Below are positions 2,011-16,257 of a stretch of 36,117 bases of DNA, one piece after another. The stretch covers positions 1 to 36,117 of the forward strand of contig CACXIM010000072.1 of assembly GCA_902767725.1 (NCBI GenBank). The letters are read 5' to 3'. The notes beneath the pieces are model-generated. The model saw only the letters and a list, made by a program, of their open reading frames with translations, ran no database searches and was not told the DNA's origin. Each line of letters opens with the position of its first letter. Position 1 is the first letter of the stretch. The stretch comes from an uncultured Bacteroidia bacterium (GTDB lineage Bacteria > Bacteroidota > Bacteroidia > Bacteroidales > F082). A program made the position numbers and the translations under genes.

Positions 2011-2038
2011 TCAGTTATCAGTTGTTCAGTTATTCAGT
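2011..2038. repeat. Short octamer-type repeat (GTTATTCA/GTTGTTCA words) between ruvX and def
   Basis: The words TCAGTTATCA, GTTGTTCA and GTTATTCA follow each other here. The same words form larger arrays at 9130-9176 and, inverted, at 9557-9575. The ruvX stop codon (2026-2028) and its last residues (LNN) are encoded by the repeat, so the repeat probably arrived at or expanded over the 3' end of ruvX. Confidence 0.75.
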
Positions 2039-2522: not shown

Positions 2523-2528
2523 CACATT

Positions 2529-2547: not shown

Positions 2548-2552
2548 CCAAC

Positions 2553-2580: not shown

Positions 2581-2588
2581 TTGCTTTG

Positions 2589-2663: not shown

Positions 2664-2680
2664 ATCTGTGTTTGCGGCTG

Positions 2681-2688
2681 CAAAAATA
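2681..2688 (-). promoter_or_regulatory. -7 promoter element for tRNA-His
   Basis: On the minus strand this reads TATTTTTG, matching TAnnTTTG. It lies 18 nt upstream of the tRNA 5' end, an appropriate distance for initiation just before the tRNA. Confidence 0.65.
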
Positions 2689-2743
2689 CTACTTTTTTCC
2701 AAAATGGCCATCAAAATCCGCCAAAAATTTCATTTTTTTCATT

Positions 2744-2779
2744 TTTGGCTTAAAAACAGGGGCGAATTCCGTATTTTTG
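2744..2779 (+). promoter_or_regulatory. Promoter for oppC
   Basis: TATTTTTG at 2772-2779 matches the -7 consensus TAnnTTTG, and TTTTGG near 2744-2749 is a plausible -33 element. The ATG of oppC follows 23 nt downstream. Confidence 0.7.
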
Positions 2780-2801
2780 ACGGCGCAAAACAAGGCACAT
2801 C

Positions 2802-3974
2802 ATGGACGGCAAGCCACAACAAAACCAATCGCCCAAGGCACTGGCGTGGAAACGGTTCCGCAGCAACAAGCTCGGAATGGTTTCTCTCGGCTTCGTCATC
2901 CTATGGGCTTTGCTAGCCATTTTTGCCTATGTCATCATCCCCGACAAGACTCCCAACGCCAACCGCCAAATCCTTGAAATAAGTACCAAGAAACCAGGCT
3001 TTGAAGTCGACATGCTGATGGTGCCTAAGGAGACGCCACCAGTCAAGACGTCTTTCCTCGACTTCCTGCTCAACGGCCGGCCTGACGACTGCATTTATTT
3101 GCCTTTCGACAGTCTACATATTAATAAGGAAACGACGACGGTTTATCTCTATCAGGCCGAAGGGGCATCAAGTGTTAGGACCGAGATTGTTGATAACACA
3201 GAACTTTTGGCCAATAATAACGGCCCTTCGACGGGCTCAGGGACCTGTTTTTCTTCTAAAGAGGAGGCTGAAAGTTATATCAGGAGCCACTGCGTGAAGC
3301 ATCGTAAGTTCCTACTTGGCACTGACCAATTTGGACGAGACTTCCTCAGCCGACTGGTGTTGGGCAGCCGCATCAGTCTCACTGTGGGTTTCATCGCAGT
3401 GCTGCTCAGCTTAATGATCGGCATCGTGATGGGTAGCTTGGGCGGCTTCTTCCGTGGCAAGGTCGACGATGCTGTGGTGTGGTTCATCAACGTGGTGTGG
3501 TCCATCCCTACCCTGCTCTTGGTCATCGCCATCACCTTCGCCTTGGGCAAGGGCATCGCACAAGTCTTCATCGCTGTCGGCCTGACCATGTGGGTGGAGG
3601 TGGCACGTATCGTGCGCGGACAGATTCTCTCCATCCGCGAGACTACCTTCGTAGAGGCAGGTCGTGCTTTGGGATTCAAGGACTTACGTATTATCTTTAG
3701 GCACATCCTGCCCAACATCCTCAACCCCATCATCGTGGTGTCGGCGGCCAATTTCGCATCGGCCATCCTACTTGAGGCGGGTTTGAGTTTCTTGGGTATC
3801 GGCGTGCAGCCCCCCATGCCATCATGGGGCAGCATGATCAAGGAAAACTACGCCTTCATCATCCTCGACGCGGCCTATCTGGCCATCCTGCCTGGTATTG
3901 CCATCATGCTTTTAGTTTTGGCGTTTATGCTTATCGGCAATGCGTTAAGAGAGGCTCTTGATGTGAAGAACTGA
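2802..3974 (+). CDS. oppC: Oligopeptide/dipeptide ABC transporter permease, OppC type
   Basis: Inner-membrane permease subunit of a peptide-type ABC importer, 390 residues. A first membrane helix spans about residues 24-46, followed by a long non-membrane extension (about 47-165) and the LLGTDQFGRDFLSR motif that opens the permease domain. The EAA loop that contacts the ATPase is EAGRALGFKDLRIIFRHILP (about 286-305). The extension is longer than in typical OppC proteins of about 300 residues and contains GPSTGSGT (141-148), encoded by a palindromic repeat at 3222-3245. Codon use around it is more AT-rich than in the rest of the gene. Neither OppA nor OppB is adjacent; the ATPase is at 16321-18105. 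Confidence 0.94.
   Translation: MDGKPQQNQSPKALAWKRFRSNKLGMVSLGFVILWALLAIFAYVIIPDKTPNANRQILEISTKKPGFEVDMLMVPKETPPVKTSFLDFLLNGRPDDCIYLPFDSLHINKETTTVYLYQAEGASSVRTEIVDNTELLANNNGPSTGSGTCFSSKEEAESYIRSHCVKHRKFLLGTDQFGRDFLSRLVLGSRISLTVGFIAVLLSLMIGIVMGSLGGFFRGKVDDAVVWFINVVWSIPTLLLVIAITFALGKGIAQVFIAVGLTMWVEVARIVRGQILSIRETTFVEAGRALGFKDLRIIFRHILPNILNPIIVVSAANFASAILLEAGLSFLGIGVQPPMPSWGSMIKENYAFIILDAAYLAILPGIAIMLLVLAFMLIGNALREALDVKN
3222..3245. repeat. Palindromic CCCTTCGAC(A/G)GGCTCAGGG element inside oppC
   Basis: GGCCCTTCGACGGGCTCAGG continuing to ACC is an imperfect palindrome (GGCCCT pairs with AGGGACC). It is read in frame as GPSTGSGT. Related copies are at 16698-16722 and 17662-17691 in the OppDF gene. 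Confidence 0.8.
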
Positions 3975-3991
3975 TTAACCTCCTTCTTCTT

Positions 3992-4086
3992 TTACCCTCA
4001 TGGCGGAGGCACATCCGCCATCTCCTTAGCCTAAGGATGTTTCCTTATGCCTAGGAGATTGCGGGTCAAGCCCGCAATGAGGGTAA
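3992..4086. repeat. Hairpin-forming dispersed element, copy 1 (GGCGGA family)
   Basis: An inverted structure of about 95 bp: outer arms TTACCCTCAT and ATGAGGGTAA, an inner hairpin GGCGGAGGCACATCCGCC, and a second inner hairpin GCGGGTCAAGCCCGC, with CTCCT/AGGAG pairing between them. It begins 18 nt after the oppC stop. A second copy lies at 19684-19771 with a nearly identical left half. It is REP/MITE-like, with no coding capacity. Confidence 0.85.
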
Positions 4087-4151
4087 AGGAGAAGTTTGTC
4101 CCAAAATGAAAAGCACATTAATAAAAGGTGAAGATATTCCCAAAAAAGTTG

Positions 4152-4159
4152 TATCTTTG
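4152..4159 (+). promoter_or_regulatory. -7 promoter element for tRNA-Leu and probably tig
   Basis: TATCTTTG matches TAnnTTTG and lies 24 nt before the tRNA-Leu 5' end. No convincing -33 element was seen. The 31-bp gap from the tRNA to tig suggests a common transcript. Confidence 0.65.
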
Positions 4160-4183
4160 CGCCCTCAAAAACGCATCTTACTT

Positions 4184-4265
4184 GCGGGTGTGGCGGAATT
4201 GGTAGACGCGCTAGACTTAGGATCTAGTTTCTCACGAAGTAAGGGTTCGAGTCCCTTCATCCGCA
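4184..4265 (+). tRNA. tRNA-Leu (anticodon TAG)
   Basis: Acceptor arms GCGGGTG and CATCCGC pair with one G-T wobble. The D arm contains GGCGGAATTGGTAGACGC, typical of leucine tRNA. The anticodon stem CTAGA/TCTAG encloses CTTAGGA (anticodon TAG), there is a long variable arm, and the T arm is AGGG-TTCGAGT-CCCT. CCA is not encoded. Confidence 0.97.
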
Positions 4266-4296
4266 CAAGTTTAAGATAATCAATAGTATACAAGAA

Positions 4297-5655
4297 ATGA
4301 ACATCACACAAAGCTCGAAAGGAGATAATTTGGTCTCCATTAAAATCAATGTTGAAAAAGCCGACTACGAAGGAATGGTCGAAAAGACGCTGAAGCAGAT
4401 GCGCCAAAAAGCCAACGTGCCTGGTTTCCGTCCCGGCATGGTGCCCATGGGCATGATCAAGAAGATGTATGGTGCCAGCGCCAAGATGGAAGCTCTGAAC
4501 ACGATCGTTTCCGATAGTCTCAACAAACATATCGTCGACAACAAGCTCGACCTCCTGGGTTATCCGCTCAACGACACTGAGCAGCAACAGCCCACCGACC
4601 TTGAAAAAGATGACAGCATCGACTTCTATTTCGAAGCCGCCCTGCGTCCCGAAATCAATGTCGACTTCACCAACACGATGGTCGACTTCTATCATATCGT
4701 CCCCACCGACGAGGAAGTGGACAAAGTCGTTGAAGACCTCCAACAGCGCAACCCCGATACGAGCCATCCCGAGACCGTAGGCGAGGACGACCGCCTCGAA
4801 ATCAAGATTCGCGAAGCCAAGAACGGTAAGGAAGTGGAAGGTGGTTACGAGAAAGACGGTGTCTTCTTCAACATGAGCCAAATCAAGAACAAGACCCAAC
4901 GCAAGAAATTCATTGACAAGGAAGTGGGTTCCGAGTTTGTCGTCAACTTCGCTAAGGTATTCGGCTCGGAAGAGGAAGCTGCCAAGGTTTTGGGCAACGA
5001 CGCCCCCGTGGCCGGTGACTTCAACATCATCATCGACGACGCCATCCGCAACGAGAAACCCGAGCTCAACGAGGACTTCTTCAAGAAGATTTTCCCCGAC
5101 AAGGAAATCAAGGACCTCGACGCCTTCAAGGTTGCCGTCAAAGCCGAGATGGAGAAGCAGCATGAGGTCGAAACCGACCCCATCCTCTTTAACAAGATGA
5201 TTGACGAATTGGTGGCTGCAGTGCATTTCGATCTGCCCGACGCATTCATGAAACGTTGGATTGTGGAGAACAGCCAAGGCAAGATCACCGCAGAGGATGC
5301 CGAGAAGAACTACGAAAAAGACTACGTGAAGGGTCTGCGCTGGCAGCTCATCGAAGACAGCATCGTGAAGGCCAACCCCGAACTCATCATCAATGACGAA
5401 GAGGTGAAGAACTTCGTGCTGAGACAAATCTTCCCCGGCATCGACTACGCCACCCTCGAAGACGACATGAAGGCCAACCTCGACAAGATTGCCGCCAACT
5501 ACCTCAAGGATGAGCAACAAGTGAACGGCATCAAGAACCAACTCGCCGACATCAAGATGACGCAGTTCTTGAAAGGTAAGATGAACATCAACTTCGCCGA
5601 GACCACCGCCGCCGACTTCATGAAGAAACTGGAAGAGGAACAGAAAACCAAATAA
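4297..5655 (+). CDS. tig: Trigger factor (ribosome-associated chaperone)
   Basis: Binds the ribosome exit tunnel and shields nascent chains. The 452 residues are a usual length for the family. The ribosome-docking loop is GFRPGMVP (43-50), matching the GFRxGxxP signature in an N-terminal domain that starts at the chosen ATG. The rest is Lys/Glu-rich and helical (for example DEEVKNFVLRQIFPGIDYAT), fitting the C-terminal chaperone arms. The central prolyl isomerase domain is divergent. The order tig-clpP-clpX is the classical one. A large inverted repeat begins directly after the stop codon. Confidence 0.96.
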   Translation: MNITQSSKGDNLVSIKINVEKADYEGMVEKTLKQMRQKANVPGFRPGMVPMGMIKKMYGASAKMEALNTIVSDSLNKHIVDNKLDLLGYPLNDTEQQQPTDLEKDDSIDFYFEAALRPEINVDFTNTMVDFYHIVPTDEEVDKVVEDLQQRNPDTSHPETVGEDDRLEIKIREAKNGKEVEGGYEKDGVFFNMSQIKNKTQRKKFIDKEVGSEFVVNFAKVFGSEEEAAKVLGNDAPVAGDFNIIIDDAIRNEKPELNEDFFKKIFPDKEIKDLDAFKVAVKAEMEKQHEVETDPILFNKMIDELVAAVHFDLPDAFMKRWIVENSQGKITAEDAEKNYEKDYVKGLRWQLIEDSIVKANPELIINDEEVKNFVLRQIFPGIDYATLEDDMKANLDKIAANYLKDEQQVNGIKNQLADIKMTQFLKGKMNINFAETTAADFMKKLEEEQKTK

Positions 5656-5657
5656 AC

Positions 5658-5736
5658 TATGGCTTATGACTATGGCCTATGGCTCATTTCAATTTCGTCG
5701 AATTGTGCCATAGGCCATTTGCCATAAGCCATAGGC
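5658..5736. repeat. Long inverted repeat between tig and clpP
   Basis: The left arm (5658-5683) is built of TATGGC words and the right arm (5707-5733) is its near-perfect reverse complement (about 26 nt with a few differences). The loop contains a second small hairpin, CAATT-TCGTCG-AATTG. The element begins two bases after the tig stop codon. The rest of the gap, to 5776, is AT-rich with no promoter I can defend. Confidence 0.85.
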
Positions 5737-5777
5737 AACTAAAAGAACTCTTTAACTCAAAAACTATTCTAACAAAA

Positions 5778-5805
5778 TGAACAACGAATTCTGAACAACG
5801 AATTC
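5778..5805. repeat. Perfect 14-bp tandem duplication over the expected clpP start
   Basis: TGAACAACGAATTC occurs twice with no mismatch (5778-5791 and 5792-5805). The first copy shares its TG with the ATG at 5777-5779. The duplication puts TGA in frame after ATG AAC AAC GAA TTC. Confidence 0.95.
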
Positions 5806-5832
5806 TTCAAGTATGCTACCAAGCACCTGGGG

Positions 5833-6471
5833 ATGAATACCTTAGGTCTTGAACAATACATCTCTAAGATTAACAACACGAGCTACATCTCGCCTACCGT
5901 CATCGAAGAGCGTCAACTCAACGTGGCCCAGATGGACGTGTTCAGCCGCCTGATGATGGATCGCATCATCTTCCTCGGCACCGCCATCGACGACTATGTA
6001 GCCAACGTCATCCAAGCCCAGCTGCTTTTCCTTGAGTCGACCGACTCGAAGCGCGACATACAGGTCTACCTCAACTCGCCTGGCGGCAGCGTCTATGCTG
6101 GCTTGGGCATCTACGACACCATGCAGTTCATCATGCCCGACGTTGCCACCATCTGCACTGGCATGGCCGCTTCGATGGCTGCCGTGCTGATGTGTGCCGG
6201 CACTAAGGGCAAGCGTTCCGCCCTGCCTCATTCGCGCATCATGATCCACCAGCCTATGGGCGGTGTGGAAGGTCAAGCCACCGAGATAGAGATCACGGCA
6301 CGCGAGATCCAAAAGCTGAAGAAGGAACTGTACGAAATCATCGCCAAGCACTCGGGCCAGACCTACGACAAGGTGTGGGCCGACAGCGACCGCGACTATT
6401 GGATGACCGCTGCCGAAGCCAAGGAATACGGTATGATCGACGAGGTGCTCATCAAGAACAAACAGGCATAA
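5833..6471 (+). CDS. clpP: ATP-dependent Clp protease proteolytic subunit (N-terminal leader disrupted)
   Basis: Serine peptidase that forms the barrel degraded-protein chamber docked by ClpX. The catalytic triad is intact: Ser114 in GMAASMA, His139 in MIHQP and Asp188 in DSDRDYW. The downstream in-frame ATG gives 212 residues. In-frame codons before it encode NNEFFKYATKHLG, which matches the leader of related ClpPs, so the ancestral start was probably the ATG at 5777. A 14-bp tandem duplication separates that ATG from the frame by a stop codon. The leader corresponds to the propeptide removed in well-studied ClpPs, so function may survive if translation starts at 5833 or at a rare start codon upstream. 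The clpX gene follows after 3 bp. Confidence 0.95.
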   Translation: MNTLGLEQYISKINNTSYISPTVIEERQLNVAQMDVFSRLMMDRIIFLGTAIDDYVANVIQAQLLFLESTDSKRDIQVYLNSPGGSVYAGLGIYDTMQFIMPDVATICTGMAASMAAVLMCAGTKGKRSALPHSRIMIHQPMGGVEGQATEIEITAREIQKLKKELYEIIAKHSGQTYDKVWADSDRDYWMTAAEAKEYGMIDEVLIKNKQA

Positions 6472-6474
6472 TTC

Positions 6475-7700
6475 ATGGCAAAGAAGTCAGGCGTTTGCGC
6501 GTTTTGTGGCAGGAAAGCCTCCGAAGTACGGCTGCTCATCCAAGGCATAGATGCCGAGATTTGCGACAGCTGCGCCGAGCAGGCTCATCTCATCGTCAAG
6601 GAACAGTTTGGCAGCAACGACAAGAGCTATACCCCTTCGGGTTTGGCCTTGAAGAAGCCCGCCGAGATCAAGAAGTTCCTTGACGAGTATGTCATTGGGC
6701 AAGACGAAGCCAAGCGCACCTTGGCCGTGGCCGTCTACAACCACTATAAGCGCATCAGCCAGAAAGTGCAGGCCGACGAGGTGGAGATCGAGAAGTCGAA
6801 CATCATCCTCGTGGGTGAGACCGGCACGGGCAAGACCCTGCTGGCCCGCACCATCGCCAAGATGCTCAACGTGCCATCGCCGACGCCACCGTGCTCACCG
6901 AGGCGGGCTATGTGGGCGAAGACGTGGAGAACATCCTCGTCAAGCTTCTGCAAGCCGCCGACTACGACGTGGCTGCCACCGAGCGCGGCATAGTCTTCAT
7001 CGACGAGATCGACAAGATCGCACGCAAGAGCGACAACCCCAGCATCACCCGCGACGTGTCGGGCGAGGGCGTGCAACAGGCCATGCTGAAACTCTTGGAA
7101 GGCTCCGTCGTCAACGTGCCGCCACAAGGCGGACGCAAGCACCCCGAGCAGAAGATGATCGCCGTCAACACGAAAGACATCCTCTTCATCGCCGGCGGCG
7201 CCTTCGACGGCATCGAGCGTCTCATCGCCGCCCGCAAGCGCACCAACGTCATCGGCTACGGCACGGGAGGCAACGAGGCCTTGGACAAGGACAACATGCT
7301 GCAATACCTCTCCCCTGCCGACCTAAAGAAATTCGGTTTGATTCCCGAGATCGTCGGTCGTCTGCCCATCATCACCCACCTCAATCCCTTGGATGCCGAT
7401 GCACTGAAACGCATCCTCACCGAGCCTAAGAACGCACTGGTGAAGCAATTCCAGAAGCTCTTCGCCATGGACAAGATCAACTTGGTCATCAAGGAAGAGG
7501 TGCTCGACTTCGTAGTGGAGAAAGCCATCGAATTTAAGGTGGGCGCGCGCGGACTGCGTTCCATCATGGAAGCCATCCTCAACGACGCCATGTTTGAGAT
7601 GCCTTCCGACATCAACGCCACCGAATTGGTGATCGACCGCGCATACGCAGAAGCAAAACTGGAGAAATCGGGATTGCAGAAACTGCATGTGGGTGATTGA
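6475..7700 (+). pseudogene. clpX: ATP-dependent Clp protease ATPase subunit ClpX, frameshifted
   Basis: AAA+ unfoldase that feeds ClpP. The first frame (6475 to about 6880) has the zinc-binding domain with Cys8, Cys11, Cys30 and Cys33, the linker [10 protein letters not shown], and Walker A GETGTGKT (114-121), up to AKMLNVP. The second frame (from about 6881) resumes with [19 protein letters not shown], Walker [10 protein letters not shown] and the sensor-2 motif GARGLR. Family ClpXs read NVPFAIADAT here. The sequence is consistent with loss of 7 nt between repeated GCC triplets near 6875-6880. As given, translation would yield a truncated protein lacking most of the ATPase domain. Either a true mutation or an assembly or sequencing error is possible. 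Confidence 0.93.
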
Positions 7701-7720
7701 CATAAGGCCCATGGAGCACT

Positions 7721-7752
7721 AAAAACGGCATCGAGTTGATGCCGTTTTTTTT
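7721..7752 (+). terminator. Terminator downstream of clpX
   Basis: AAAAACGGCATC-GAGTT-GATGCCGTTTTTT forms a strong stem with a T tract. It lies 20 bp after the clpX stop and ends the tig-clpPX unit. Confidence 0.9.
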
Positions 7753-7810
7753 ATTTTGGCACAATAGTTGCATTAGTCTGGGCGTTAAACATTCAAAAAG
7801 AGAAAGCACT

Positions 7811-8506
7811 ATGAAAAGAATAGCCTTAGTCGCACTGATAGCCTTGATGAGCATGACCGGATTTGCACAAATGATAGCCAAAGGCGACCCCGCAAAGAAA
7901 AAAGTCAAGATCGTCAAAAGACAAGAAGCGCCAAAACCACAGTCGGCGGTGGTCGACTTCTCCAATCCTGCCGAGCCCATTAGCGGTAGCGTGGTCTACG
8001 GCCGCATTGATGAGAATGGCGACACCACCCTCATCGTCTACCTTCCCGAGGTGGACATCGATCTGATGCAACGCTATCTGCAAATCACTGACACTCGTCA
8101 AGGCCGCCGTTTGGCCAACAACGTGAAGAAGGTGTATCCCTACGCCAAACTCGCTGGCGCTAAAATGCAAGAATACGACTCCATCCTGGCCAACATCAAC
8201 GACAAGTCGGAGCGCAAACGCTTGATGAAACAAGCCGAAGATGAAATCACTGAACAATACACCGAGGAGTTGAAGAACCTCACCTTCTCGCAGGGACTTA
8301 TCCTCGTCCGTCTCATCGACCGAGAGACATCGCGCACCAGTTATCAAGTTGTTAAAGAACTGCGCGGCAAGGTACGCGCCTTCTTCTACCAAGGTTTCGC
8401 CCGCCTATGGGGCTACAACCTCAAGACAGAATATGATCCGCACAACAACCCCGAAGACGACGAGATCGAGACGATTATGACACTGATGGAACGTGGGGTG
8501 ATATAG
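7811..8506 (+). CDS. Exported DUF4294-family protein
   Basis: A 231-residue protein with an N-terminal signal peptide (MKRIALVALIALMSMTGFAQ). The mature part resembles the DUF4294 family of Bacteroidota: RRLANNVKKVYPYAKLAGAK, then KRLMKQAEDEITEQYTEEL, SQGLILVRLIDRETSRTSYQ and a C-terminal GFARLWGYNLKTEYDP. The open frame runs further upstream, but the ATG at 7811 begins the signal peptide and the upstream part is the clpX terminator. The function of this family is unknown to me; it is probably periplasmic. Confidence 0.85.
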   Translation: MKRIALVALIALMSMTGFAQMIAKGDPAKKKVKIVKRQEAPKPQSAVVDFSNPAEPISGSVVYGRIDENGDTTLIVYLPEVDIDLMQRYLQITDTRQGRRLANNVKKVYPYAKLAGAKMQEYDSILANINDKSERKRLMKQAEDEITEQYTEELKNLTFSQGLILVRLIDRETSRTSYQVVKELRGKVRAFFYQGFARLWGYNLKTEYDPHNNPEDDEIETIMTLMERGVI

Positions 8507-8540
8507 AACACAGAGTGTTTTCGAACACGGATATACACGG
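8507..8540. repeat. Short repeat-like words (AACAC/ACACGG) after DUF4294 gene
   Basis: The words GAACACAGAG, GAACACGGAT and ACACGGAGAG follow directly after the stop codon. They resemble degenerate direct repeats. This is a weaker case than the other elements in this window. Confidence 0.4.
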
Positions 8541-8569
8541 AGAGAGGCGCAAAATGCGCCTCTCTCTTT
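8541..8569. terminator. Bidirectional hairpin between convergent DUF4294 and cvpA genes
   Basis: GAGAGGCGC-AAAAT-GCGCCTCTC is a 9-bp perfect stem in the gap between the two convergent stops. The T tract is short (CTCTTTG), so it may terminate or protect RNA ends. Confidence 0.7.
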
Positions 8570-8573
8570 GTGT

Positions 8574-9128
8574 TTAGAAAGATACTGTGTTGGACTTTGG
8601 TGGGGCTGAGCTGTCCTCCTGTTCGGGCAGCATCTCTTGGGCATAGCCTTTCACCAAGTCGAAGCCCTTGTAAAGATACGGCACGGTCTTTTCAACGTAA
8701 GGATATAGGAAGGATTTCTGCCTCACCTCTTCCTTGATGATGCCCGTCCACTGCAAGTTATTGAACACCAGCACAAAGGTGCTGCACAACAGCACGCCTT
8801 TCAGAATGCCAAAAAGGAATCCACCCAACTTGTCGAAGAAGCCTAAATTCAAGGACTTGATAACCCTCGAGACCAAGCGTCCTATCAGGTTGACCAACAC
8901 CACCAGAATAATGAAGGTCAAAACGAAGGCGATGGTATTGAGGTATTTCGGGTTGATTTCCATGAAGTCCTGCAGATGCCCAGCGGTGAAGTCGGAGAAG
9001 TGCATGGCGCCATAGATGCCCACGCCAAAAGCCAGCAGGGTGACCACCTCGATAATGAGCCCCTTGCGAAGCCCCTTGAATCCGAAGACGAGGAGGATGA
9101 TTGCTATTATTATGTCTAGGTAGTTCAC
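8574..9128 (-). CDS. cvpA: CvpA-family inner membrane protein
   Basis: A 184-residue protein of the CvpA family, named after colicin V production. It has several hydrophobic helices: YLDIIIAIILLVFGFKGLRK at the N terminus with the family GLRKGL turn, then VVTLLAFGVGIYGAMHF, TIAFVLTFIILVVLVNLIG and FGILKGVLLCSTFVLVF. The tail is charged and Pro/Ser-rich. The start is GTG at 9126-9128; no ATG exists at a suitable position. An octamer repeat array directly abuts the start codon and forms the whole gap to the upstream IVP-type gene. Exact function in Bacteroidales is unclear. Confidence 0.88.
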   Translation of the reverse strand: MNYLDIIIAIILLVFGFKGLRKGLIIEVVTLLAFGVGIYGAMHFSDFTAGHLQDFMEINPKYLNTIAFVLTFIILVVLVNLIGRLVSRVIKSLNLGFFDKLGGFLFGILKGVLLCSTFVLVFNNLQWTGIIKEEVRQKSFLYPYVEKTVPYLYKGFDLVKGYAQEMLPEQEDSSAPPKSNTVSF

Positions 9129-9129
9129 A

Positions 9130-9176
9130 AGTTGTTCAGTTATTCAGTTATTCAGTTATTCAGTTGTTCAGTTTTT
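9130..9176. repeat. Tandem octamer array (GTTATTCA / GTTGTTCA) between cvpA and IVP gene
   Basis: Read on the minus strand, units CTGAACAA, CTGAATAA (three times), CTGAACAA and CTT follow with an 8-bp period. The IVP stop codon (9168-9170) is part of the array, and the cvpA GTG follows its other end. The array at 9557-9575 has the same words in inverse orientation. Confidence 0.9.
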
Positions 9177-9527
9177 GTTGCCAGAGTTTTTGGTTATGCT
9201 GTTGAATATTTTGTTTAGCTCCTGACATTTTTCGTTGATGTCGTCGTATTCGTCTTGGGTAAGATAATCTGTTCTGTATAGAAGCTTAAGCCAATAGTTT
9301 GTTTCTGCGCATTCTTTTAGCGATATATAGATTTTTGCTACAAAATCCCTATGGCTGATGCCGTTTTGAGCTTCAACAAGATTTGCCCCAATACTTGTAC
9401 CACTGCGAAGCAGTTGCTTTGACAAAACATATTCTTTTTTGTCCTCGCACAGGTGTTTGTATGTGTTTACAACGTCAACGGCAAAATCCAAACATTTTTC
9501 TCTAATATAATCACCAAAATTTTCCAT
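9168..9527 (-). CDS. Four-helix bundle protein, 23S rRNA intervening-sequence protein (IVP) family
   Basis: A 119-residue all-helical protein of the family first seen inside intervening sequences of 23S rRNA genes. Typical features are FAVDVVNTYKHL, the central LSKQLLRSGTSIGANLVEAQ motif (the SxSIGANxxEA core), and KIYISLKECAETNYWLKLL. Here it sits in a protein-coding context, not in an rRNA gene. Its codons are more AT-rich than its neighbours' and inverted short-repeat arrays flank it on both sides, which suggests a mobile or independently acquired unit. Family members fold as pentameric four-helix bundles related to the Avd proteins of diversity-generating retroelements. No molecular role is established for stand-alone copies. 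Confidence 0.92.
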   Translation of the reverse strand: MENFGDYIREKCLDFAVDVVNTYKHLCEDKKEYVLSKQLLRSGTSIGANLVEAQNGISHRDFVAKIYISLKECAETNYWLKLLYRTDYLTQDEYDDINEKCQELNKIFNSITKNSGNKN

Positions 9528-9554
9528 AGTATTCTTTATTTTAACTGTTATCTA

Positions 9555-9616
9555 TTAACTGAACAACTGAACAACTCCCAACTTCCAACTGCAAACTGCA
9601 AACTGCAAACTGCTAA
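9555..9616. repeat. Inverted repeat array upstream of the IVP gene (AACTGAACA and AACTGCA words)
   Basis: AACTGAAC words occur twice (9557-9575), followed by transitional words (CCCAACTT, CCAACTG) and then a heptamer array AACTGCA repeated about four times (9587-9614). It ends at the stop codon of the M64 peptidase gene. The AACTGAACAAC words are the reverse complement of those in the array at 9130-9176. Confidence 0.9.
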
Positions 9617-10888
9617 CTATTTACTATAATAAAGTATCATCCGTTCGATGGCGCGTTGGCAAACGGGGCAGAATTCATGGCCTTTGAAGGTTTTCATCAG
9701 GCAGTCCATGTGGGGGCTGTACATGCCTTTGGGTTCATAGCCGCCACCCTCGAACACACCTATGGTCTGTTCGTATTTTTTCTCACGAGGCGTAGGCACA
9801 GGCGTCTTCTTGTCGAGCATGTCGCCCCATTTGTTGCTGAAATCCACCAACGATGTGATGTTGGGTTCCCATGGCTCGACGGCGAGGTTGTACATGTGGT
9901 CGTAGCCCGTCTCGTCGTTATAGTATTCGTCGGCGAGGCCAGCGAAGCCGTGACCGAACTCGTGGATGATGACATCGCCCGAGAAGCTGTTGCTGCTCGC
10001 GCTGGAGCAATAGAAGTTATAGATGCCGCCTCCCCCGTATTTGTCAGTATTTACAAGGATATAGATCTGGTCGTAGGGCACCTGACCCGCCAGGTCACGG
10101 ATATCGCGGTTGTCAGTGCTCATGCAGTAGCGTTCCGAGTCGAAAGTCCAGAAGCTGAAACGCATGGCCGTGTTCTTGTAGATGTTGTCACCAGGCATGG
10201 TACAGCCGCTCTCTTCTGAAGGCACCATAAGGCCACGCACGTTGAAGCTCTCACGGTAGCGGTCGTAAGGCGCATAATCGAAAAGGCTTTTCACGAAGAA
10301 GTCGCAGTCCTTGATGAACTTGCCCATCTCAGCCTGTGTATAGCCTTCGGGCAGGATGACGATGTCAACAGCATGGGTGATGTCCTTGTTGCCAATCCAA
10401 GCGTCGTAGACGGGTAGGTCGAGCTTGTCGTAGTCGCGGATGAAATAGTCGCTGGGGTTGACGGTGAGACGCATCCCTTCGACCAGTTCACCTTCCCAAG
10501 TCTTTCGGTACAAGGTGATGTCGATCTTCACCTTGGGGAAAGGCACGACGACCGACTCCTCAAAACTCTTGGTCAGTTTCAAGGCCTCGGGCGTGGTGGT
10601 CCACTCGCCGTAAAGGTTCTGGTAGCCCTTGGAAAACAGGAGATGGTCAGTGCCCGCCTCAAACACCTTGACGATGTAGTTGCCAAACTCCAGGTCATCG
10701 ATGAGGTTGGTCTTCGATCCGCTCCAATAAGGCTCATGGATGAGTTCCTTGAGCGAGAAGGTGGTCGTCTTGTTGTTGCCCGTCAAGACATAGTCAACTC
10801 GCAGCGACGACTCGGTGAAATACTGGTCAAACTGGGCCAAGGCCATCATTGGCAGCAGGGCGAAAAGGAATAGCAGTCTTTTCTTCAT
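9617..10888 (-). CDS. Secreted M64-family zinc metallopeptidase
   Basis: A 423-residue exported protease. The signal peptide ends near MMALAQ (residue 19). The zinc motif is HEFGHGFAGLADEYY: His309 and His313 bind zinc, Glu310 is catalytic, and Asp320 is in the place of the third ligand in the M64 (IgA peptidase M64) family. Upstream is the family segment AVDIVILPEGYTQAEMGKF with an N-terminal beta-rich domain (about 20-165). The C terminus has a CPVC pair. It starts 6 bp after the gene at 10895, so the two are probably co-transcribed. The natural substrate is unknown; assigning IgA would be over-interpretation. Confidence 0.93.
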   Translation of the reverse strand: MKKRLLFLFALLPMMALAQFDQYFTESSLRVDYVLTGNNKTTTFSLKELIHEPYWSGSKTNLIDDLEFGNYIVKVFEAGTDHLLFSKGYQNLYGEWTTTPEALKLTKSFEESVVVPFPKVKIDITLYRKTWEGELVEGMRLTVNPSDYFIRDYDKLDLPVYDAWIGNKDITHAVDIVILPEGYTQAEMGKFIKDCDFFVKSLFDYAPYDRYRESFNVRGLMVPSEESGCTMPGDNIYKNTAMRFSFWTFDSERYCMSTDNRDIRDLAGQVPYDQIYILVNTDKYGGGGIYNFYCSSASSNSFSGDVIIHEFGHGFAGLADEYYNDETGYDHMYNLAVEPWEPNITSLVDFSNKWGDMLDKKTPVPTPREKKYEQTIGVFEGGGYEPKGMYSPHMDCLMKTFKGHEFCPVCQRAIERMILYYSK

Positions 10889-10894
10889 CGTTGG

Positions 10895-11512
10895 TTAATT
10901 CTTGTAAATGGCGTCAAAAATCACCTTGACATAATCGAAATCTGGAATTGCATAATTGTCGAGTTCTTTCACAACTTCGGGATGGCTCTTTGAGGTGATT
11001 TCCTTCATCTTTCCGTTTTCGTCCATCAGCTTGAAGATGGAACGGATGATTTTGCCGTTTTCATCATAGTAATAGCGAACCTCAAACTCAAATGTATCAT
11101 CTATAGAATTGAGCATCTCCGTAAAATGCGTGAAAAAGAACAATGGTTTTCCGTTGTCATCAAATAGGTATTCTTCCAAATAGTCACGAGCGGCCACATT
11201 ATAGGTGCGGTGCACCATGCGAAGGGCATAGCCATCGGGATAGGGTTCTTCCTCATCATCCCGGAGCTCGTTATAGTAAAACCAAATCGAATCAGATCTC
11301 ATGCCTACGGCCGCCCAGTTTTGATTTCTGACGACAATGGTATAGTTTAAAGGATATTGATCTGCGGAATTTTCGGCAATTAGTGCCAAACCCTCTGAAT
11401 ATTTCTCTCGAGCGAGTTTGATGCGATCGTCTACTTTCTTGTTGTTTTGTGCCAGTATGGGTAGCGACAGACACATCAACAATACCATAAGAAGTGCTTG
11501 TTTTTTCATCAT
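10895..11512 (-). CDS. Secreted protein of unknown function, paralogue of the protein at 12876-13475
   Basis: 205 residues with a signal peptide (ending near LPILAQ). Shared segments with the second copy include LAREKYSEGLALIA, NYTIVVRNQNWAAVG, HRTYNVA, a DDNGKPLFFFT block and YYYDENGKIIRSI. The NGK blocks recall short beta-hairpin repeats of the YD/MORN type, but no family can be named with confidence. Two adjacent ATGs exist at the start. A promoter element on the minus strand lies at 11540-11547. It is the first gene of a unit that continues into the M64 peptidase. Confidence 0.8.
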   Translation of the reverse strand: MMKKQALLMVLLMCLSLPILAQNNKKVDDRIKLAREKYSEGLALIAENSADQYPLNYTIVVRNQNWAAVGMRSDSIWFYYNELRDDEEEPYPDGYALRMVHRTYNVAARDYLEEYLFDDNGKPLFFFTHFTEMLNSIDDTFEFEVRYYYDENGKIIRSIFKLMDENGKMKEITSKSHPEVVKELDNYAIPDFDYVKVIFDAIYKN

Positions 11513-11539
11513 TAGACTATTTTAATGGTTAACATTACG

Positions 11540-11547
11540 CAAAAGTA
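11540..11547 (-). promoter_or_regulatory. -7 promoter element for the secreted protein/M64 operon
   Basis: On the minus strand TACTTTTG matches TAnnTTTG, about 28 nt before the ATG. It is divergent to the element at 11568-11575. Confidence 0.65.
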
Positions 11548-11567
11548 GGCATTTTTCAAGAAATCCG

Positions 11568-11575
11568 TATCTTTG
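11568..11575 (+). promoter_or_regulatory. -7 promoter element for the lipoprotein gene at 11597
   Basis: TATCTTTG matches TAnnTTTG and lies 21 nt before the ATG at 11597. Confidence 0.65.
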
Positions 11576-11596
11576 CCAAGCAAAAAACACCTAATT

Positions 11597-12141
11597 ATGA
11601 AGACAAAAGCATTATTCTTCGCGATGGCCGTGGCATTGGCGGCCTGCAACAACGGCAATCCACAGGACCAAAAGGCCATAGAGCCCGAATCGACAGCCAT
11701 CCAGGCGACAAATGACAATCTCCCCAAAAAAGACATTATCACCGATGACGGTCTTGGCGAGTTCCAGCTTGGCGCTCCGTTGAGTTCAGCAAGGACGGCG
11801 TGGTGCAGTTTACCATCTTCCCCGCCTATATCGATGAGACCGACGCCCAGTCGAACGAAATTGGGGGCATCATGGTGGTGTCTGACCAGTTCACCCACAA
11901 CGGCATAGGTGTTGGGAGCAACGTCAACGACATCCTTAAAAACAACCCCGACCTGAAGGTCGCTTTCGATGACGACCAGTATTTCCGCATCTATGACGGC
12001 GGCATCACTTATCTCATCAGTAGCGATGACTACGATGGCCCACTGCCGGAAGTGCCGTTCGACATCCCTGCACCCGTCGAGAATCCCACTTTCAAACCTG
12101 ACGCCAAGGTGTCGTCCATCTGGATCCTCCCGACATTTTAA
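11597..12141 (+). pseudogene. Lipoprotein gene with internal frame break
   Basis: The ATG at 11597 starts a lipoprotein signal (MKTKALFFAMAVALAACNNG). The first frame runs to DDGLGEFQLGAPLSS near 11788 and then turns into unlike codons. A second frame, clear from about 11782, continues EFSKDGVVQFTIFPAYIDE to SSIWILPTF at 12141. Both parts align with one stretch of the large lipoprotein at 13494-15131 (GLGGLHLNDSMPE ... VFNRDG ... NPKFRHDATVQYIRIY). That comparison suggests about 12-16 codons plus a non-triplet remainder are missing near 11780-11790. Real inactivation and an assembly error both fit. The function of the module is unknown. Confidence 0.75.
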
Positions 12142-12148
12142 AAGCAAA

Positions 12149-12183
12149 CAAAAAAGCCCTGCCTCACAGCAGGGCTTTTTTTT
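12149..12183. terminator. Bidirectional terminator
   Basis: GCCCTGC (12156-12162), loop CTCACA and GCAGGGC (12169-12175) are flanked by A and T tracts. It lies between the convergent lipoprotein genes ending at 12141 and 12199. Confidence 0.9.
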
Positions 12184-12198
12184 GCTCCATAGGTCGAA

Positions 12199-12846
12199 TC
12201 AATAATACTCAATCTCTCTTGACACTTCCGTTTCGTTGACGTATTCGACAACCTGATCCGTGTCCGTCTGCTTTCTACGTGTCCAATTGCCATGATCGTC
12301 GAATTCAAGGTAAGTGTATTCGGTAACCCACATTAGGTTCACCTCTTCGGGCCCATCGGTCTCGACAACTTCATACTGCATTGTCTTCACCAATCGTCCG
12401 TCGGCATCATATTCACGGTCGGTCAACCAAAGTTGCCCTTCATAGCCCGACAAGACTTGGGTCACTCGCCCATCATGCCATCTGTATTCATCCATGTATT
12501 CATAGCAGAGGATAGAGTCGATTTGGCCTTGGGCATCACGAGTCCAACGGCAATAGTCCACCACCTCGCCATCGTCATTCATCTCACGTCGTGGCTCTTC
12601 AAGGGCGAATGGGTCTTGGCCGTCCACCGAAATGATTTTGCCATTACGGTCGAATTCCACAAGGTCGCAGCTTTTCACCGGACCTTGCAGGTCAAAGAAG
12701 ACCAAGTCGGGCGAAGTGGTCACCGTCGTTTCTTGCACGGTTGGCTTAACGTCTTCCTTTGTTGCTTGCTTTTGGCCGTTGTTGTCGCACGCGCCGAAAA
12801 CGAGGAGCATCGCGCAGGCAGCCAGTAAAAGACCATGTTTCTTCAT
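12199..12846 (-). CDS. Lipoprotein with YD-like repeats, unknown function
   Basis: 215 residues. The signal ends in a lipobox (VFGAC, with D after Cys). The mature part has several short strands of the form EFDRNGKIISVDG, EYDADGRLVKTMQY and EFDDHGNWTRRKQ, which resemble loosely RHS/YD-type or similar beta-hairpin repeats seen in surface proteins of Bacteroidota. It is acidic overall. It lies 29 bp after the gene at 12876, as last gene of a minus-strand lipoprotein cluster, and ends at a strong terminator. No function can be assigned. Confidence 0.8.
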   Translation of the reverse strand: MKKHGLLLAACAMLLVFGACDNNGQKQATKEDVKPTVQETTVTTSPDLVFFDLQGPVKSCDLVEFDRNGKIISVDGQDPFALEEPRREMNDDGEVVDYCRWTRDAQGQIDSILCYEYMDEYRWHDGRVTQVLSGYEGQLWLTDREYDADGRLVKTMQYEVVETDGPEEVNLMWVTEYTYLEFDDHGNWTRRKQTDTDQVVEYVNETEVSREIEYY

Positions 12847-12875
12847 AATTTGTTGCTATTTATGGTTTGTTGTGT

Positions 12876-13475
12876 TTAAGGATTAACAGAATAGATGGCT
12901 TGGAAGGCGGCGTTCAAAGCGATGAAATGATCGAAAACCATGGAATAAGCCGATTCCAGCTCTTCATCAAGTTCGCAAGTCTTCATTTCGCCGTTCTTGT
13001 CGGCTCGTTTGCAGATGGTGCGAATGAGTTTCCCATTGGCATCATAATAGCCACGCAACTCTACCATCTCGTCCTTGGCATAGCCGTAACGCGTAAACCA
13101 GAACAAAGGCTTACCGTCGTTGTCATAGACAAATTCTTCAAAATGGTCGGTAGATCCAACATTATATGTGCGGCGCACCATGACTAGGGTGTAGCCGATA
13201 GGATAAGGTTCCATGTCATCCTCAATCTCGGAGTAATAGAACTCCATCTTGTCGACCATCTGCCCTGCCCCAGCCCAGTTTTGCTTGCGCACCACTGTGG
13301 TGTAGTTGACAGCAGGAATTTCATCAGCCTCGTATTGCTTCACGGCCGCGATATTAGCCAATCCTTCGGCGTATTTCTCACGGGCCAGCTGAACGCGAGC
13401 CTCCTCTTTTTTGTTTTGTGCCATCATCGGCAAGGCGAAGCATAGCAACAACGCCATGGCAACTAGTTTTCTCAT
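12876..13475 (-). CDS. Secreted protein, paralogue of 10895-11512
   Basis: 199 residues with a signal peptide (ending near LPMMAQ). It shares the blocks LAREKYAEGLANIA, NYTTVVRKQNWAGAG, RRTYNVG, DNDGKPLFWFT and YYDANGKLIRTICK with the copy at 10895, in the same order and at similar spacing. The two are clearly paralogues separated by other lipoprotein genes. It begins 18 bp after the large lipoprotein gene, so probably lies in the same transcript. Unknown function. Confidence 0.8.
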   Translation of the reverse strand: MRKLVAMALLLCFALPMMAQNKKEEARVQLAREKYAEGLANIAAVKQYEADEIPAVNYTTVVRKQNWAGAGQMVDKMEFYYSEIEDDMEPYPIGYTLVMVRRTYNVGSTDHFEEFVYDNDGKPLFWFTRYGYAKDEMVELRGYYDANGKLIRTICKRADKNGEMKTCELDEELESAYSMVFDHFIALNAAFQAIYSVNP

Positions 13476-13493
13476 GTTTTTTTGTTTTTAGTG

Positions 13494-15131
13494 TTAAAAC
13501 TCATTCTCAAAAAATCCTTCGTTGGTCTTGCGCATCGAGATGCCGTCCCAGGTGTATTCGACGCGGCTTTTCTCGTTGCTTTCGTCTCTGTGGACAATCT
13601 CCATGGCATCGTCCCTGAAATTGACACCAACGACCTTGACAAAGCGGAATCCACCCGCATTAGTCTCATAGTCATTCATGCCTGGCTCAACCTCAGCCCC
13701 GGTCACTTTCCCATCCTTGAACACATAGGTCTCGATAGGCGAATAGCCTGCATCCACTTCGTCGCCCTCATCTCCGGGTTGCCAATCTGTAGTCACATAC
13801 ACCTTGAAGCCACCAGCCTTCAGAGGATAACAATGCAAATAGTATTGGAAGACATCGCAGTAGCCGTCACAACTGCGGTTATACAGCTCCCTGAAATAAT
13901 AGAGCGAGTTGATGTCGTAATAAGCTTTCCCGCAATCGGGATAACCATCGAACAGACTGGCTTCATCCATGGCTGCCTTGAGTGCTTGCATGTCGCAGGT
14001 GTCACTCTCCCAATGGTGGGGCTTGTAGATACGGATATACTGCACCGTGGCATCGTGCCTGAACTTAGGATTCGCGATCTCGCCATCCACGAAGCTGCCG
14101 TCGATGGCATCTTTCGGGCCCACATAATCGATGCGATTTTCTGTGTATTCACTTTCTTCGGTCACGACAAATTCGCCCTCCTTATAGTATGCCTTGTTTT
14201 CGAGTGCACCTTTGTAGAGCAGTCTGTTGAGCGTGTCGCCTATCTTACCGCGGTAATAGGTCAAGTCCTTGGCAAAGACGTCGATGGCCTGAATCTTGCC
14301 TGCCCCATCGGGATGAAGTTTGAGGAAAGGCTCTCCATCGCGGTTGAAGACGAGCACCTCGCCTTCGTAGCGCTTGCTGAGTCCAGGCAACTCTTCGGGC
14401 ATGCTGTCGTTCAGATGGAGGCCGCCCAAACCATCTCGATCGATAAGGTCATAGGTTCGCTCCTCATTGTTGAGGATCGGGACAAAGCTTTCGCCGTTCC
14501 ACACATATCTCCTTTCGGACAGCACGGACAAGAACCTATCGTCATAGTTGAGGCTCTCCACATTCACGAGCAGCGTATCGCCTTTGACTCCGTAGAGCAG
14601 GCGGTCGTTCCACTCCAACTTGAATTCGTTGATTTCGTCGTCACCGATGCCATACAGGAGGAAGGGATAGGGCACCATCTCTTCCATGGTAGGCATGGGC
14701 AACATGCCTGTCACAGGATTCAAGGCGTCATCCTTGTAGATGTAGGTCTTCACAGTCTGGTCGCAGCCGTCGAAGCAGCCCTCGTTGACCAGCATGGCCA
14801 TCCAGCCGCCGTTGTTGAGCGGGAAGCAGTCGACGTTGAACAAGAAGTTGCCTCCTTCCATATACAGTTCCGGGCTACTGTCTTTGCCTTCACTGAAGCC
14901 GAAATGGCGGCGGCAGGAGTCAGGGCAGGTGAAGGTCATGGTTTGAAACCTTTCCTCCAAGTCCCCCTTAGGGATGCGTTCGAAGATCTCGAAGGCGATG
15001 CCCTTGTCGTCGACTCTTGGCGCCTCCACGGGTGTGTCGTCTTTCTTTTCCTTCTTGTCGCCAAAACAGCCGTAGCCGATAAACAGCAAGGCTAATGCTG
15101 TTATGGCTAAATTGTACTTTCTTCTTTTCAT
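13494..15131 (-). CDS. Large lipoprotein with internally repeated modules, unknown function
   Basis: 545 residues. The signal ends GYGC, a relaxed lipobox, followed by FGDKKEKKDD, an acidic/lysine stretch like those that send Bacteroidota lipoproteins to the surface. The N-terminal part (about 88-140) and the C-terminal part (about 415-475) are similar to each other: both have a Cys-rich FPLNNGGW or YPLKAGGF core followed by a TYIYKDD or TYVFKDG strand. The middle (about 235-370) resembles the lipoprotein at 11597. This looks like a protein built by module duplication. No known family could be named. The open frame on the opposite strand is a shadow. Confidence 0.8.
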   Translation of the reverse strand: MKRRKYNLAITALALLFIGYGCFGDKKEKKDDTPVEAPRVDDKGIAFEIFERIPKGDLEERFQTMTFTCPDSCRRHFGFSEGKDSSPELYMEGGNFLFNVDCFPLNNGGWMAMLVNEGCFDGCDQTVKTYIYKDDALNPVTGMLPMPTMEEMVPYPFLLYGIGDDEINEFKLEWNDRLLYGVKGDTLLVNVESLNYDDRFLSVLSERRYVWNGESFVPILNNEERTYDLIDRDGLGGLHLNDSMPEELPGLSKRYEGEVLVFNRDGEPFLKLHPDGAGKIQAIDVFAKDLTYYRGKIGDTLNRLLYKGALENKAYYKEGEFVVTEESEYTENRIDYVGPKDAIDGSFVDGEIANPKFRHDATVQYIRIYKPHHWESDTCDMQALKAAMDEASLFDGYPDCGKAYYDINSLYYFRELYNRSCDGYCDVFQYYLHCYPLKAGGFKVYVTTDWQPGDEGDEVDAGYSPIETYVFKDGKVTGAEVEPGMNDYETNAGGFRFVKVVGVNFRDDAMEIVHRDESNEKSRVEYTWDGISMRKTNEGFFENEF

Positions 15132-15195
15132 AAGGTCATAAGTAACTATTCAAAATCAAACTGCAATAATATAAGCTTTTTAGCTGTAAGCAATC

Positions 15196-15243
15196 AGCCG
15201 TCAGCTTTCAGCTTGGTAGCACCATGGCTGACTGCTGACGGCC
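15196..15243. repeat. Inverted repeat of AGCCGTCAGC words
   Basis: Left arm AGCCGTCAGCTTTCAGC (15196-15212) and right arm GCTGACTGCTGACGGCC (15227-15243) are near-perfect reverse complements around a short loop. It lies in the 161-bp gap between two lipoprotein genes on the minus strand. The rest of that gap is AT-rich and carries only a weak promoter-like TATTATTG before the gene at 15131. Confidence 0.8.
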
Positions 15244-15292
15244 AAATTCTCTTGCCTTTTATGTAAACTAATTTTGCCCATCTACTTATGAA

Positions 15293-16228
15293 TTAATAGC
15301 CTACACTGGCTTGGAACTCCACGGGTTGGTTGAATCCTTGTCCTGACAAGTCGAGACCCTCGATAGGATTGACGACAAACTTGGAGGGATCGTCGCAATA
15401 ACTCAACTCAAACACGCCTTTTTCAGAGATTTCCGAAGTTTTCGGGTCAGTACTGAGGTCGGAGGCGTCAATCAGTCGGGTCAGCTCGTAGCCATAACGG
15501 AACACCATCCCATCCCAATCCATCGCGATGGGCCAAAAACGGCCTTGCTTCTCCACAACAGCCTCTTCCTGTAAACGTTCCTCAACAAATCTCATCTTCC
15601 AATCGGATGAGAGGTTCAAGGTGTAAAGGGTCGTGGGCCACTCCGGGTCGTCGCCGTAAACATAATGCTTCAACCAGTTGTATAATGTGTACTCAACCAC
15701 TTCGTATTCATTGCCCTCCTCATCCAGTCCATAGATGGTGACATAATCGTAGAACACGGTACCGTCCTCGTCCTCCCAAGGACCTCCAGGACCATCTGTG
15801 AAGCCTACAATGTTGTCCATGGGTATCTCAGTAGCTTCCAAATCGCCCGTTGAAACGGTGTTCCAAAGGCTTAGCATCTGCACCTTGCCCTCTTCAGTGA
15901 GCACGCAGAGGATGGGGTTATAGTCCTGACCCATGTCGGCAATGATGAAGTTTTTCGGTGCACCTTTCAGCCCTTCCACTTTGACAGGCTCATCAGGCAA
16001 ACGATACGAGTCGTCGTCGACGATGCCAGTAGGCAGGATCTGGTCCTTGTGGAAGGTGAGCCACATACCACCATCTTTGATTTCACCCGAGATGGCGGGC
16101 TGGTCGTCAGATATGGTGACGTAATCCTGCGACAGCTCCGTCGTATCTTCATCTACAGGTTGGTTGTTTGTGCCACATGAGGCAAAGAGAAGAAATGCCA
16201 AGGATAAGGCAAGGTAAATGTGTTTCAT
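15293..16228 (-). CDS. Acidic lipoprotein, unknown function
   Basis: 311 residues with a lipobox (LLFASC, Cys19 followed by GTNNQPVDEDTTEL). The mature protein is acidic, rich in Asp, Glu and aromatic residues, with no membrane segment. Segments such as DGTVFYDYVTIYGLDEEGNE suggest a beta-rich fold. It is first in the minus-strand lipoprotein cluster and is preceded by a TAnnTTTG element at 16258-16265, divergent to the OppDF promoter. I do not recognise the family. Confidence 0.78.
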   Translation of the reverse strand: MKHIYLALSLAFLLFASCGTNNQPVDEDTTELSQDYVTISDDQPAISGEIKDGGMWLTFHKDQILPTGIVDDDSYRLPDEPVKVEGLKGAPKNFIIADMGQDYNPILCVLTEEGKVQMLSLWNTVSTGDLEATEIPMDNIVGFTDGPGGPWEDEDGTVFYDYVTIYGLDEEGNEYEVVEYTLYNWLKHYVYGDDPEWPTTLYTLNLSSDWKMRFVEERLQEEAVVEKQGRFWPIAMDWDGMVFRYGYELTRLIDASDLSTDPKTSEISEKGVFELSYCDDPSKFVVNPIEGLDLSGQGFNQPVEFQASVGY

Positions 16229-16257
16229 GGCGTGATGTTTTAATGTGTTTGATTCTA

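Follow-up and report, generated by a model that had tools for sequence, protein, structure and literature searches.

Inverted arrays of seven- and eight-base words around IVP genes: a candidate minimal mobile element

An IVP gene placed between mutually inverted arms of 7- or 8-bp words forms a unit of about 440-520 bp that is probably a minimal mobile element, or at least one that was repeatedly gained and lost. The feature is real and widespread and, within the open-access literature, it is undescribed as a unit: no recognisable description of IVP genes with heptamer arms was found there. Direct comparison of sequences established that gene and inner arms are homologous across sites, that the sites of congeners are either occupied or empty, and that close relatives have arm words in common. 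These comparisons support mobility of the unit, and from them we infer movement. An earlier note, made from the DNA of the window alone, had already read the unit as a minimal mobile cassette, a reading that synteny, flank and site comparisons largely favoured.

The IVP locus of the window

The window, i.e. the whole stretch of 36,117 nucleotides under study, is an entire contig (G000:C72); the assembly comprises 153 contigs and is about 80% complete. Its relevant features are summarized in Table 1. The 360-bp gene, initially recognised as IVP in the earlier note, was confirmed as such: PF05635 (23S_rRNA_IVP) was its sole Pfam match (E 5.2e-28, 97.8 bits for a curated cut-off of 33.8), and the closest solved structure by sequence was PDB 2rld (E 2e-34; a single entry with five chains). 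Members of the IVP family form a pentameric ring, with which the five chains in 2rld agree.

On the minus strand the gene order is M64 peptidase, IVP and cvpA, and the whole M64-cvpA gap is filled by an array, the IVP gene and an inverted array. Read on this strand, the M64-IVP gap consists of consecutive AGTTNNN heptamers and then of AGTTGTTC octamers, and the IVP-cvpA gap displays the reverse complement, in the form of AACTGAAC/AACTGAAT octamers. Positions 9130-9150 and 9556-9576 constitute an inverted pair with 95% complementarity across 21 nt. The earlier description of inverted octamer arrays on both sides stands for these complementary arms, but the second array, which had been given as 9557-9575, extends to 9618 with changing words. 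On the strand of the gene these outer words are AGTTTGC and AGTTGGA, and the two nearest copies (L125 and L085, see below) have others. The arm downstream of IVP abuts the cvpA start and, as previously noticed, contains the IVP stop codon (9168-9170). Likewise, the gene is indeed more AT-rich than its neighbours (GC 0.364 vs 0.522 in the flanks).

Table 1. Features of the window related to the IVP unit (positions on the forward strand; a dot indicates a feature without strand).
Feature	Position	Strand	Evidence
IVP / four-helix-bundle gene, 119 aa, 360-bp ORF	9168..9527	-	PF05635 match
M64 peptidase, upstream neighbour	9617..10888	-	PF09471 / PF16217
cvpA, downstream neighbour	8574..9128	-	PF02674, E 1.3e-30
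Arm downstream of IVP, AGTTRTTC octamers x5.5 (read on +)	9130..9173	.	TRF score 74, 94% matches
Inner of the two arms upstream of IVP, 2.5 copies of octamer AACTGAAC (read on +), reverse-complementary to the downstream arm	9557..9576	.	TRF and inverted pair I23, 95%
Outer of the two upstream arms, heptamers of AACTNNN type with varying words, into M64 stop codon	9572..9618	.	TRF
Core element (inner left array, IVP gene, right array), homologous to L125 unit at another site	9130..9583	-	blastn HSP, 83.3% identity over 454 nt
Gene-less array with same octamer word, between deformylase and RuvX-like ORFs	2011..2038	.	TRF, word search

Two further observations concern other parts of the window. 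Four successive minus-strand ORFs, each of some 200 aa and with no Pfam match, occupy positions 10895-13475, where stretches 11304-11488 and 13264-13457 are about 70% alike, which suggests tandem paralogues. Low-complexity repeats of TGCTGCTGTTG type were also present at 29070-29197, within ORF 28944-30725.

Flanks of IVP genes

Inversion was scored by aligning the 120 bp upstream of each IVP gene to the reverse complement of the 120 bp downstream, with a threshold of at least 28. The set consisted of 108 IVP genes (four of 112 IVP ORFs were dropped for short flanks), in which a broken gene, L146, counted as two ORFs, neither half passing. The 60 regions from relatives were chosen by hand and nearly all belonged to the same genus; each species was represented by a single genome, and many of the assemblies appear to be drafts. 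Inverted flanks were displayed by 82/108 IVP genes and by only 13/506 other genes in the same loci, the latter being what was left after removing 258 IVP genes or neighbours. Scores above threshold occurred in 162/3240 flank pairs mismatched between loci, in 8/228 mismatched within a genome and in 53/2160 dinucleotide-shuffled pairs. Since true pairs matched far above mismatched and shuffled ones, the matching words belong to the single element and not to the genome as a whole. Genome-wide homogenisation of words was accordingly discarded, the same-genome mismatched pairs showing no excess over those between loci. A reading as direct repeats resulting from target duplication was also discarded: flanks matched in direct orientation in 20/108 genes, against 82/108 in inverted orientation. 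The earlier note had asked whether other IVP genes have the same flanking words; inverted arrays were encountered in most of them, but the words were each gene's own and 26/108 genes fell below the threshold, some with direct arrays only (L004 and L139), which is a minority state.

Periodicity was the second hallmark of these flanks. Its threshold was reached by 101/216 IVP flanks and by 0/216 dinucleotide-shuffled ones. The best period was 7 or 14 in 77 flanks, 8 in 12 and another value in 12, with none in the remaining 115. Among the 13 controls with inverted flanks were, by the look of the sequence, one Y1-like, one GIY-YIG-like and one GxxExxY-like gene, as well as two genes lying between TTTAGAG-type heptamer arrays (L115).

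GC content of IVP was below that of the surroundings in 107/108 genes. Values of dN/dS ranged from 0.02 to 0.08 in five pairs (two further pairs of unequal length were omitted) and were 0.04 for the window gene against both L125 and L085, indicating that the protein is under purifying selection.

Homology of the cassette and sharing of arms

The nearest IVPs found to that of the window, L125 (91.6% aa) and L085 (89.1% aa), both reside at another site, between lpdA and rfbC. The nucleotide match between the window and L125 (83% identity) covered positions -55 to +398, counted from the IVP start; it begins within the left array, stops where the right array ends and does not continue beyond. As dS between the window and its nearest copies was 1.2-1.5, the move would not be recent.

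The 108 IVP genes were distributed over 68 sites, as defined by their neighbours. In pairs from different sites with 80-90% IVP identity (n=22), both arms were shared in a fraction of 0.91, and this sharing was 0.07 or less in every bin below 60% identity. This pattern indicates that arms follow the lineage of the element and drift fast. A terminal inverted repeat common to all copies, as is expected of MITEs or insertion sequences, was not observed, arms being shared by close relatives. Within-site co-evolution of arms is not claimed here: a gene's own arms matched better than arms swapped within the site in 26/43 cases (p=0.057; sites with at least three loci, the cluster of L001, L018 and L108 being omitted because it is covered by the RND set below).

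Gene-less arrays, occupied sites and empty sites

The octamer pair GTTRTTCAGTTRTTCA had 44 matches in the genome of origin, at about 20 places (grouped by hand), and its reversed control had none. Only one of these places, that of the window unit, coincided with an IVP match. None of the 14 places inspected carried IVP, and several were located, by eye, just before an ATG. The gene-less array at 2011-2038, mentioned in the earlier note, proved real by TRF and is one of these places; it may be a relic or a gene-less array that arose independently. As the word is common in this genome without IVP, local arrays could have given rise to the arms.

Matches to M64 occurred in 58/60 genomes of the genus (own genome included), and the best 30 loci were compared. 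All 30 displayed cvpA after M64, an adjacency anticipated earlier, and IVP was inserted between them in one only, that of the window. Conserved synteny of IVP with cvpA, which the earlier note regarded as evidence against a cassette, was thus absent from these loci. In the closest relative (98% aa in M64), the M64-cvpA gap consisted of 46 bp of a different heptamer array. At the lpdA-rfbC site, IVP was found in 2/30 fetched loci. A third site, between RND and MKAILITYNQ genes, carried IVP in 5/30 fetched loci as a unit of about 500 bp; without IVP, the gap measured 5-6 bp in 18/30 loci and 8 bp in one. At L259, another locus of this site, the stop codon is followed at once by the right arm alone of an L240-type element, and this locus was read as a putative deletion relic.

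The 90 loci of the three sites were classed by algorithm. Eight contained IVP and 27 were nearly gap-free; 18 had gene-less gaps that were both periodic and inverted, 20 were periodic in one direction, 8 harboured other palindromes and 9 fell elsewhere. Among the 18, one is L259 and three have a period of 9 (L209, L213 and L224, all at lpdA-rfbC). No target-site duplication was recognised by eye in pairs of occupied and empty sites, whose ends are themselves repeats. The comparison of occupied with empty sites, which the earlier note had in view, thus covered three sites, and the homologous cassette at another site ended at the arrays.

Could the heptamer hairpins pre-exist, the IVP gene alone being inserted into their loops, as in the hairpin loops of 23S rRNA? 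The 18 periodic and inverted gaps devoid of a gene would agree with such resident targets, as would a gene-less hairpin with the window's word elsewhere in the genome (L369) and the outer left words of the window, which are missing from the nearest copies as if they were resident. Yet the RND site offers 5-6 bp and no hairpin in 18/30 loci, its sole periodic inverted gap being the relic L259; moreover, related IVPs at different sites share arms, and the arms lie within the homologous cassette. We consider this scenario unlikely. The scattered occupancy could also arise by loss together with homologous recombination. An old operon gene lost repeatedly, with arrays accumulating as slippage products in AT-rich gaps, would require no mobility at all. 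It would fit the frequency of gene-less periodic arrays in these gaps (38/90 loci) and the over-representation of heptamers in many bacteria, for which slippage has been proposed (PMC4692102). Against such a history stand the matching inverted arms, tied to the two sides of one IVP and not to other genes or loci, the 68 different sites and the homology limited to the cassette, and it appears very improbable. Gain and loss of the unit as a whole remains the reading preferred here.

Placement and pairing of the arms

The 82 units with inverted flanks were preferentially oriented with respect to their neighbours: (+,+) in 55, (+,-) in 21, (-,+) in 3, (-,-) in 2 and (+,?) in 1, the imbalance between (+,+) and (-,-) being significant (p=2e-14). 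The upstream gene was co-directional with IVP in 77/82 units. The paired left arm began a median of 3 nt past the upstream stop (n=77), and the paired right arm finished a median of 9 nt short of the downstream start (n=58).

Such a placement, with arms abutting stop and start codons and an orientation following the upstream gene, would also be expected if the arms paired in the mRNA, folding IVP out and holding the upstream stop near the downstream start, so that the insertion would be tolerated like rRNA intervening sequences. Folding of the window transcript predicted that the arms pair (-121.4 kcal/mol, z -2.97), and predicted pairing was stronger between own arms (median -53.6 kcal/mol) than between mismatched ones (-34.8 kcal/mol). 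Yet the antisense strand was predicted to pair equally well (median -55.0), and the G-U asymmetry test was flat, with 72 sense-compatible vs 75 antisense-compatible mismatches, so that selection on the arms at the RNA level was rejected. In addition, the gene downstream is convergent in 21/82 units, and these have no coupling to preserve. This explanation is, in our opinion, rather improbable. Since the antisense strand pairs equally and G-U bias is absent, recognition or copying of the arms as DNA is favoured.

Distribution and possible partners

The genome of origin contained five IVP matches. Those on contigs C93 and C20 displayed inverted arrays with other words (AGCTRTA and AGTTAGG), the one on contig C2 had arrays on both sides in direct orientation, and no array was seen around a weak match on contig C36. 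Upstream of the C2 gene lies an array of about 16 copies of the 14-mer GAGGGAAGAAGTGA (L004, 1049-1276).

IVP was broadly distributed among relatives (49/60 genomes, own included, with up to 15 matches each) and in Bacteroidota (157/198 genomes, own included and the others at least 90% complete, with up to 16 matches). When 30 of the top hits from across Bacteroidota were sampled, 12/30 had inverted flanks, vs 18/870 mismatched pairs. The scan of named genomes also reached Clostridia, Falkowbacteria/Patescibacteria and Calditrichota records. In eight non-Bacteroidota genomes, 14/23 IVP ORFs had inverted flanks vs 13/506 mismatched pairs; these 23, the ones with full flanks after 6 of 29 were dropped, include seven (three of them passing) that repeat the 108, at loci L139, L141-L143, L145 and L146 (the broken gene, here again two ORFs), and without these seven 11/16 passed. 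Plasmid IVPs, represented by 13 of 25 hits, nine of them cyanobacterial, reached 28 in 8/13 cases and 24 in 11/13 (mismatched pairs: 10/156 at 28), with L267, whose gene end was misplaced, entered as a miss; their arm words include TAATTCG and GTCGGAA. The inverted-array pattern thus recurs in Clostridia, Patescibacteria and cyanobacterial plasmids. Phage records gave 2/50,697 in the IVP search.

Several plasmid IVPs (L267, L271, L272, L276, L278 and L279) were located in or beside defence genes, namely hsdS/hsdR, cas2/cas1, DISARM drmD / BREX pglX and helicase / N-6 DNA methylase. The 1.1-Mb genome of the Patescibacteria record of L146 had 12 IVP matches. Four of these matches clustered within about 4 kb (G091:C19:8534-12855); one of the four contains an in-frame TAG, and the CGTATTT word was common to two copies of the cluster.

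No known recombinase is encoded in the cassette. The accessory protein Avd of diversity-generating systems (DGR) is a four-helix pentamer fold, and IVP resembles it by its own four-helix fold; we take the two folds to be related. The unit might then be moved in trans by a known enzyme: an HUH Y1 transposase or, if IVP acts like Avd, a reverse transcriptase. Genes of the Avd type are found together with the reverse transcriptases of DGRs (PMC8934634), and Y1_Tnp and RVT_1 matches were present in 47/60 and 34/60 of the genomes searched (own included). Against this, one genome with six IVP genes (G027; 91% complete, which limits the absence) had no RVT_1 or Y1_Tnp match, another with five (G011, 100%) had no RVT_1 match and one Y1_Tnp match, and the arms of distant IVPs seldom share sequence that a sequence-specific enzyme could read. 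Both partners were rejected on the basis of these two genomes, and an enzyme of this kind acting in trans seems very unlikely. As to a DGR in the window, no RVT match occurred among the 18 ORFs scanned (899 to 18105).

Other solo-gene families

Inverted flanks are not unique to IVP. In the same relatives, they were observed for solo GxxExxY genes (PF13366; inverted 20/30, direct 13/30) and solo GIY-YIG genes (inverted 14/23, direct 9/23), after exclusion of 7 of 30 GIY-YIG loci (L327, L332, L334 and L336-L338, with frames of 601-652 aa, and L328, with 200 aa). The 45-bp periodicity threshold was reached by 0/60 GxxExxY flanks and 0/46 GIY-YIG flanks. The feature peculiar to IVP is its 7/8-bp periodicity. 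The window unit may belong to a guild of cassettes, each built around a solo gene.

By eye, GxxExxY flanks (L280-L309) displayed words of about 9 bp, of CACGAATTT / AATTCGTG type, and GIY-YIG flanks a palindrome of CCCTGAGCCTGTCGAAGGG type. Solo GIY-YIG genes at L311, L313, L314, L316, L317 and L330 had the inverted palindrome CCCTGAGCCTGTCGAAGGGCC on their flanks. In the window, a related palindrome occurs at 3221-3246, 16697-16722 and 17661-17686, in transporter ORFs 2802-3974 and 16321-18105.

Mechanism and comparison with known systems

The unit occupies the interval that runs from one gene's stop codon to the start region of its neighbour (or to a convergent end), and it reads with the upstream gene. 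The proposed mechanism is as follows. The IVP ring would recognise the arms by their periodic, self-complementary structure, as DNA hairpins, and not by a fixed sequence. With host replication or repair enzymes, it would then place copies of the unit in the gaps that adjoin gene ends. Arrays and hairpins that carry the unit's words but no gene would be its relics or non-autonomous satellites, in the relation that REPs bear to RAYTs. More tentatively, IVP elements may form a new class of their own among minimal mobile elements, with ends recognised not by sequence but by a 7-bp period and by self-complementarity, a pentameric ring and host enzymes alone writing and spreading heptamer arrays into gene-end gaps; the orphan heptamers of Bacteroidota, Cyanobacteria, Beggiatoaceae and Xanthomonas might then be traces of this one protein family, and the rRNA intervening sequences (IVS) a special case. 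If movement is confirmed, this would be a very small mobile element with no recognisable recombinase and no fixed end sequence.

In Coxiella (PMC4990558), the 23S IVS measures 428 nt and encodes an S23/IVP protein, its ORF being reported in reductive evolution, and tandem heptamers whose copy number varies between strains lie just upstream of that ORF. IVP ORFs are also described within 16S and 23S insertions of CPR bacteria (PMC11270868). The window-type unit resembles rRNA IVSs by its protein family (IVP / S23p), a similar insertion size and a low GC, and it too has complementary ends around an ORF. It differs from them in that it lies between protein genes (M64 and cvpA in the window) and not inside an rRNA gene, at many sites, and with inverted heptamer arrays. 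Unlike the Coxiella ORF, IVP in these units is conserved by selection.

Heptamer repeats are known from other bacteria. TAACTGA repeats are present in Beggiatoaceae, Cyanobacteria and Bacteroidetes, often before start codons in Beggiatoaceae (PMC4679880), and GGGAATC repeats occur as inverted pairs in Xanthomonas, with similar repeats in Nostoc (PMC4692102). They share with the present arrays 7-bp words and a mostly intergenic location, and gene-less arrays just before an ATG in the genome of origin resemble the Beggiatoaceae TAACTGA arrays. Tandem 7-bp units (STRR-like) are found in the outer arm of the window, the inner arms being of 8 bp. The term 'four helix' is absent from PMC4679880 and PMC4692102, the terms 'intervening' and '23S' are absent from PMC4679880, and the parts of both papers considered hold no visible link of heptamers to IVP. 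In the literature found, as far as its available parts extend, intergenic heptamer repeats are without a protein partner and IVP is functionally uncharacterised. Most examined IVP genes, across phyla, have their own inverted short-word arrays, which links these two puzzles: IVP is possibly the protein partner of bacterial seven-base repeats.

RAYT/REP systems (BIMEs) combine a solo gene, flanking inverted repeats and many gene-less intergenic copies. The IVP unit likewise associates one solo gene with flanking inverted repeats and gene-less copies in gaps, dispersed copies being recorded for the word only and not for whole arms. Unlike RAYTs, the unit contains no Y1 transposase, and its arms conserve period and complementarity instead of sequence. 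By analogy, it would best be read as a counterpart of RAYT/REP whose ends are set by period and complementarity, and which is accompanied by dispersed gene-less arrays.
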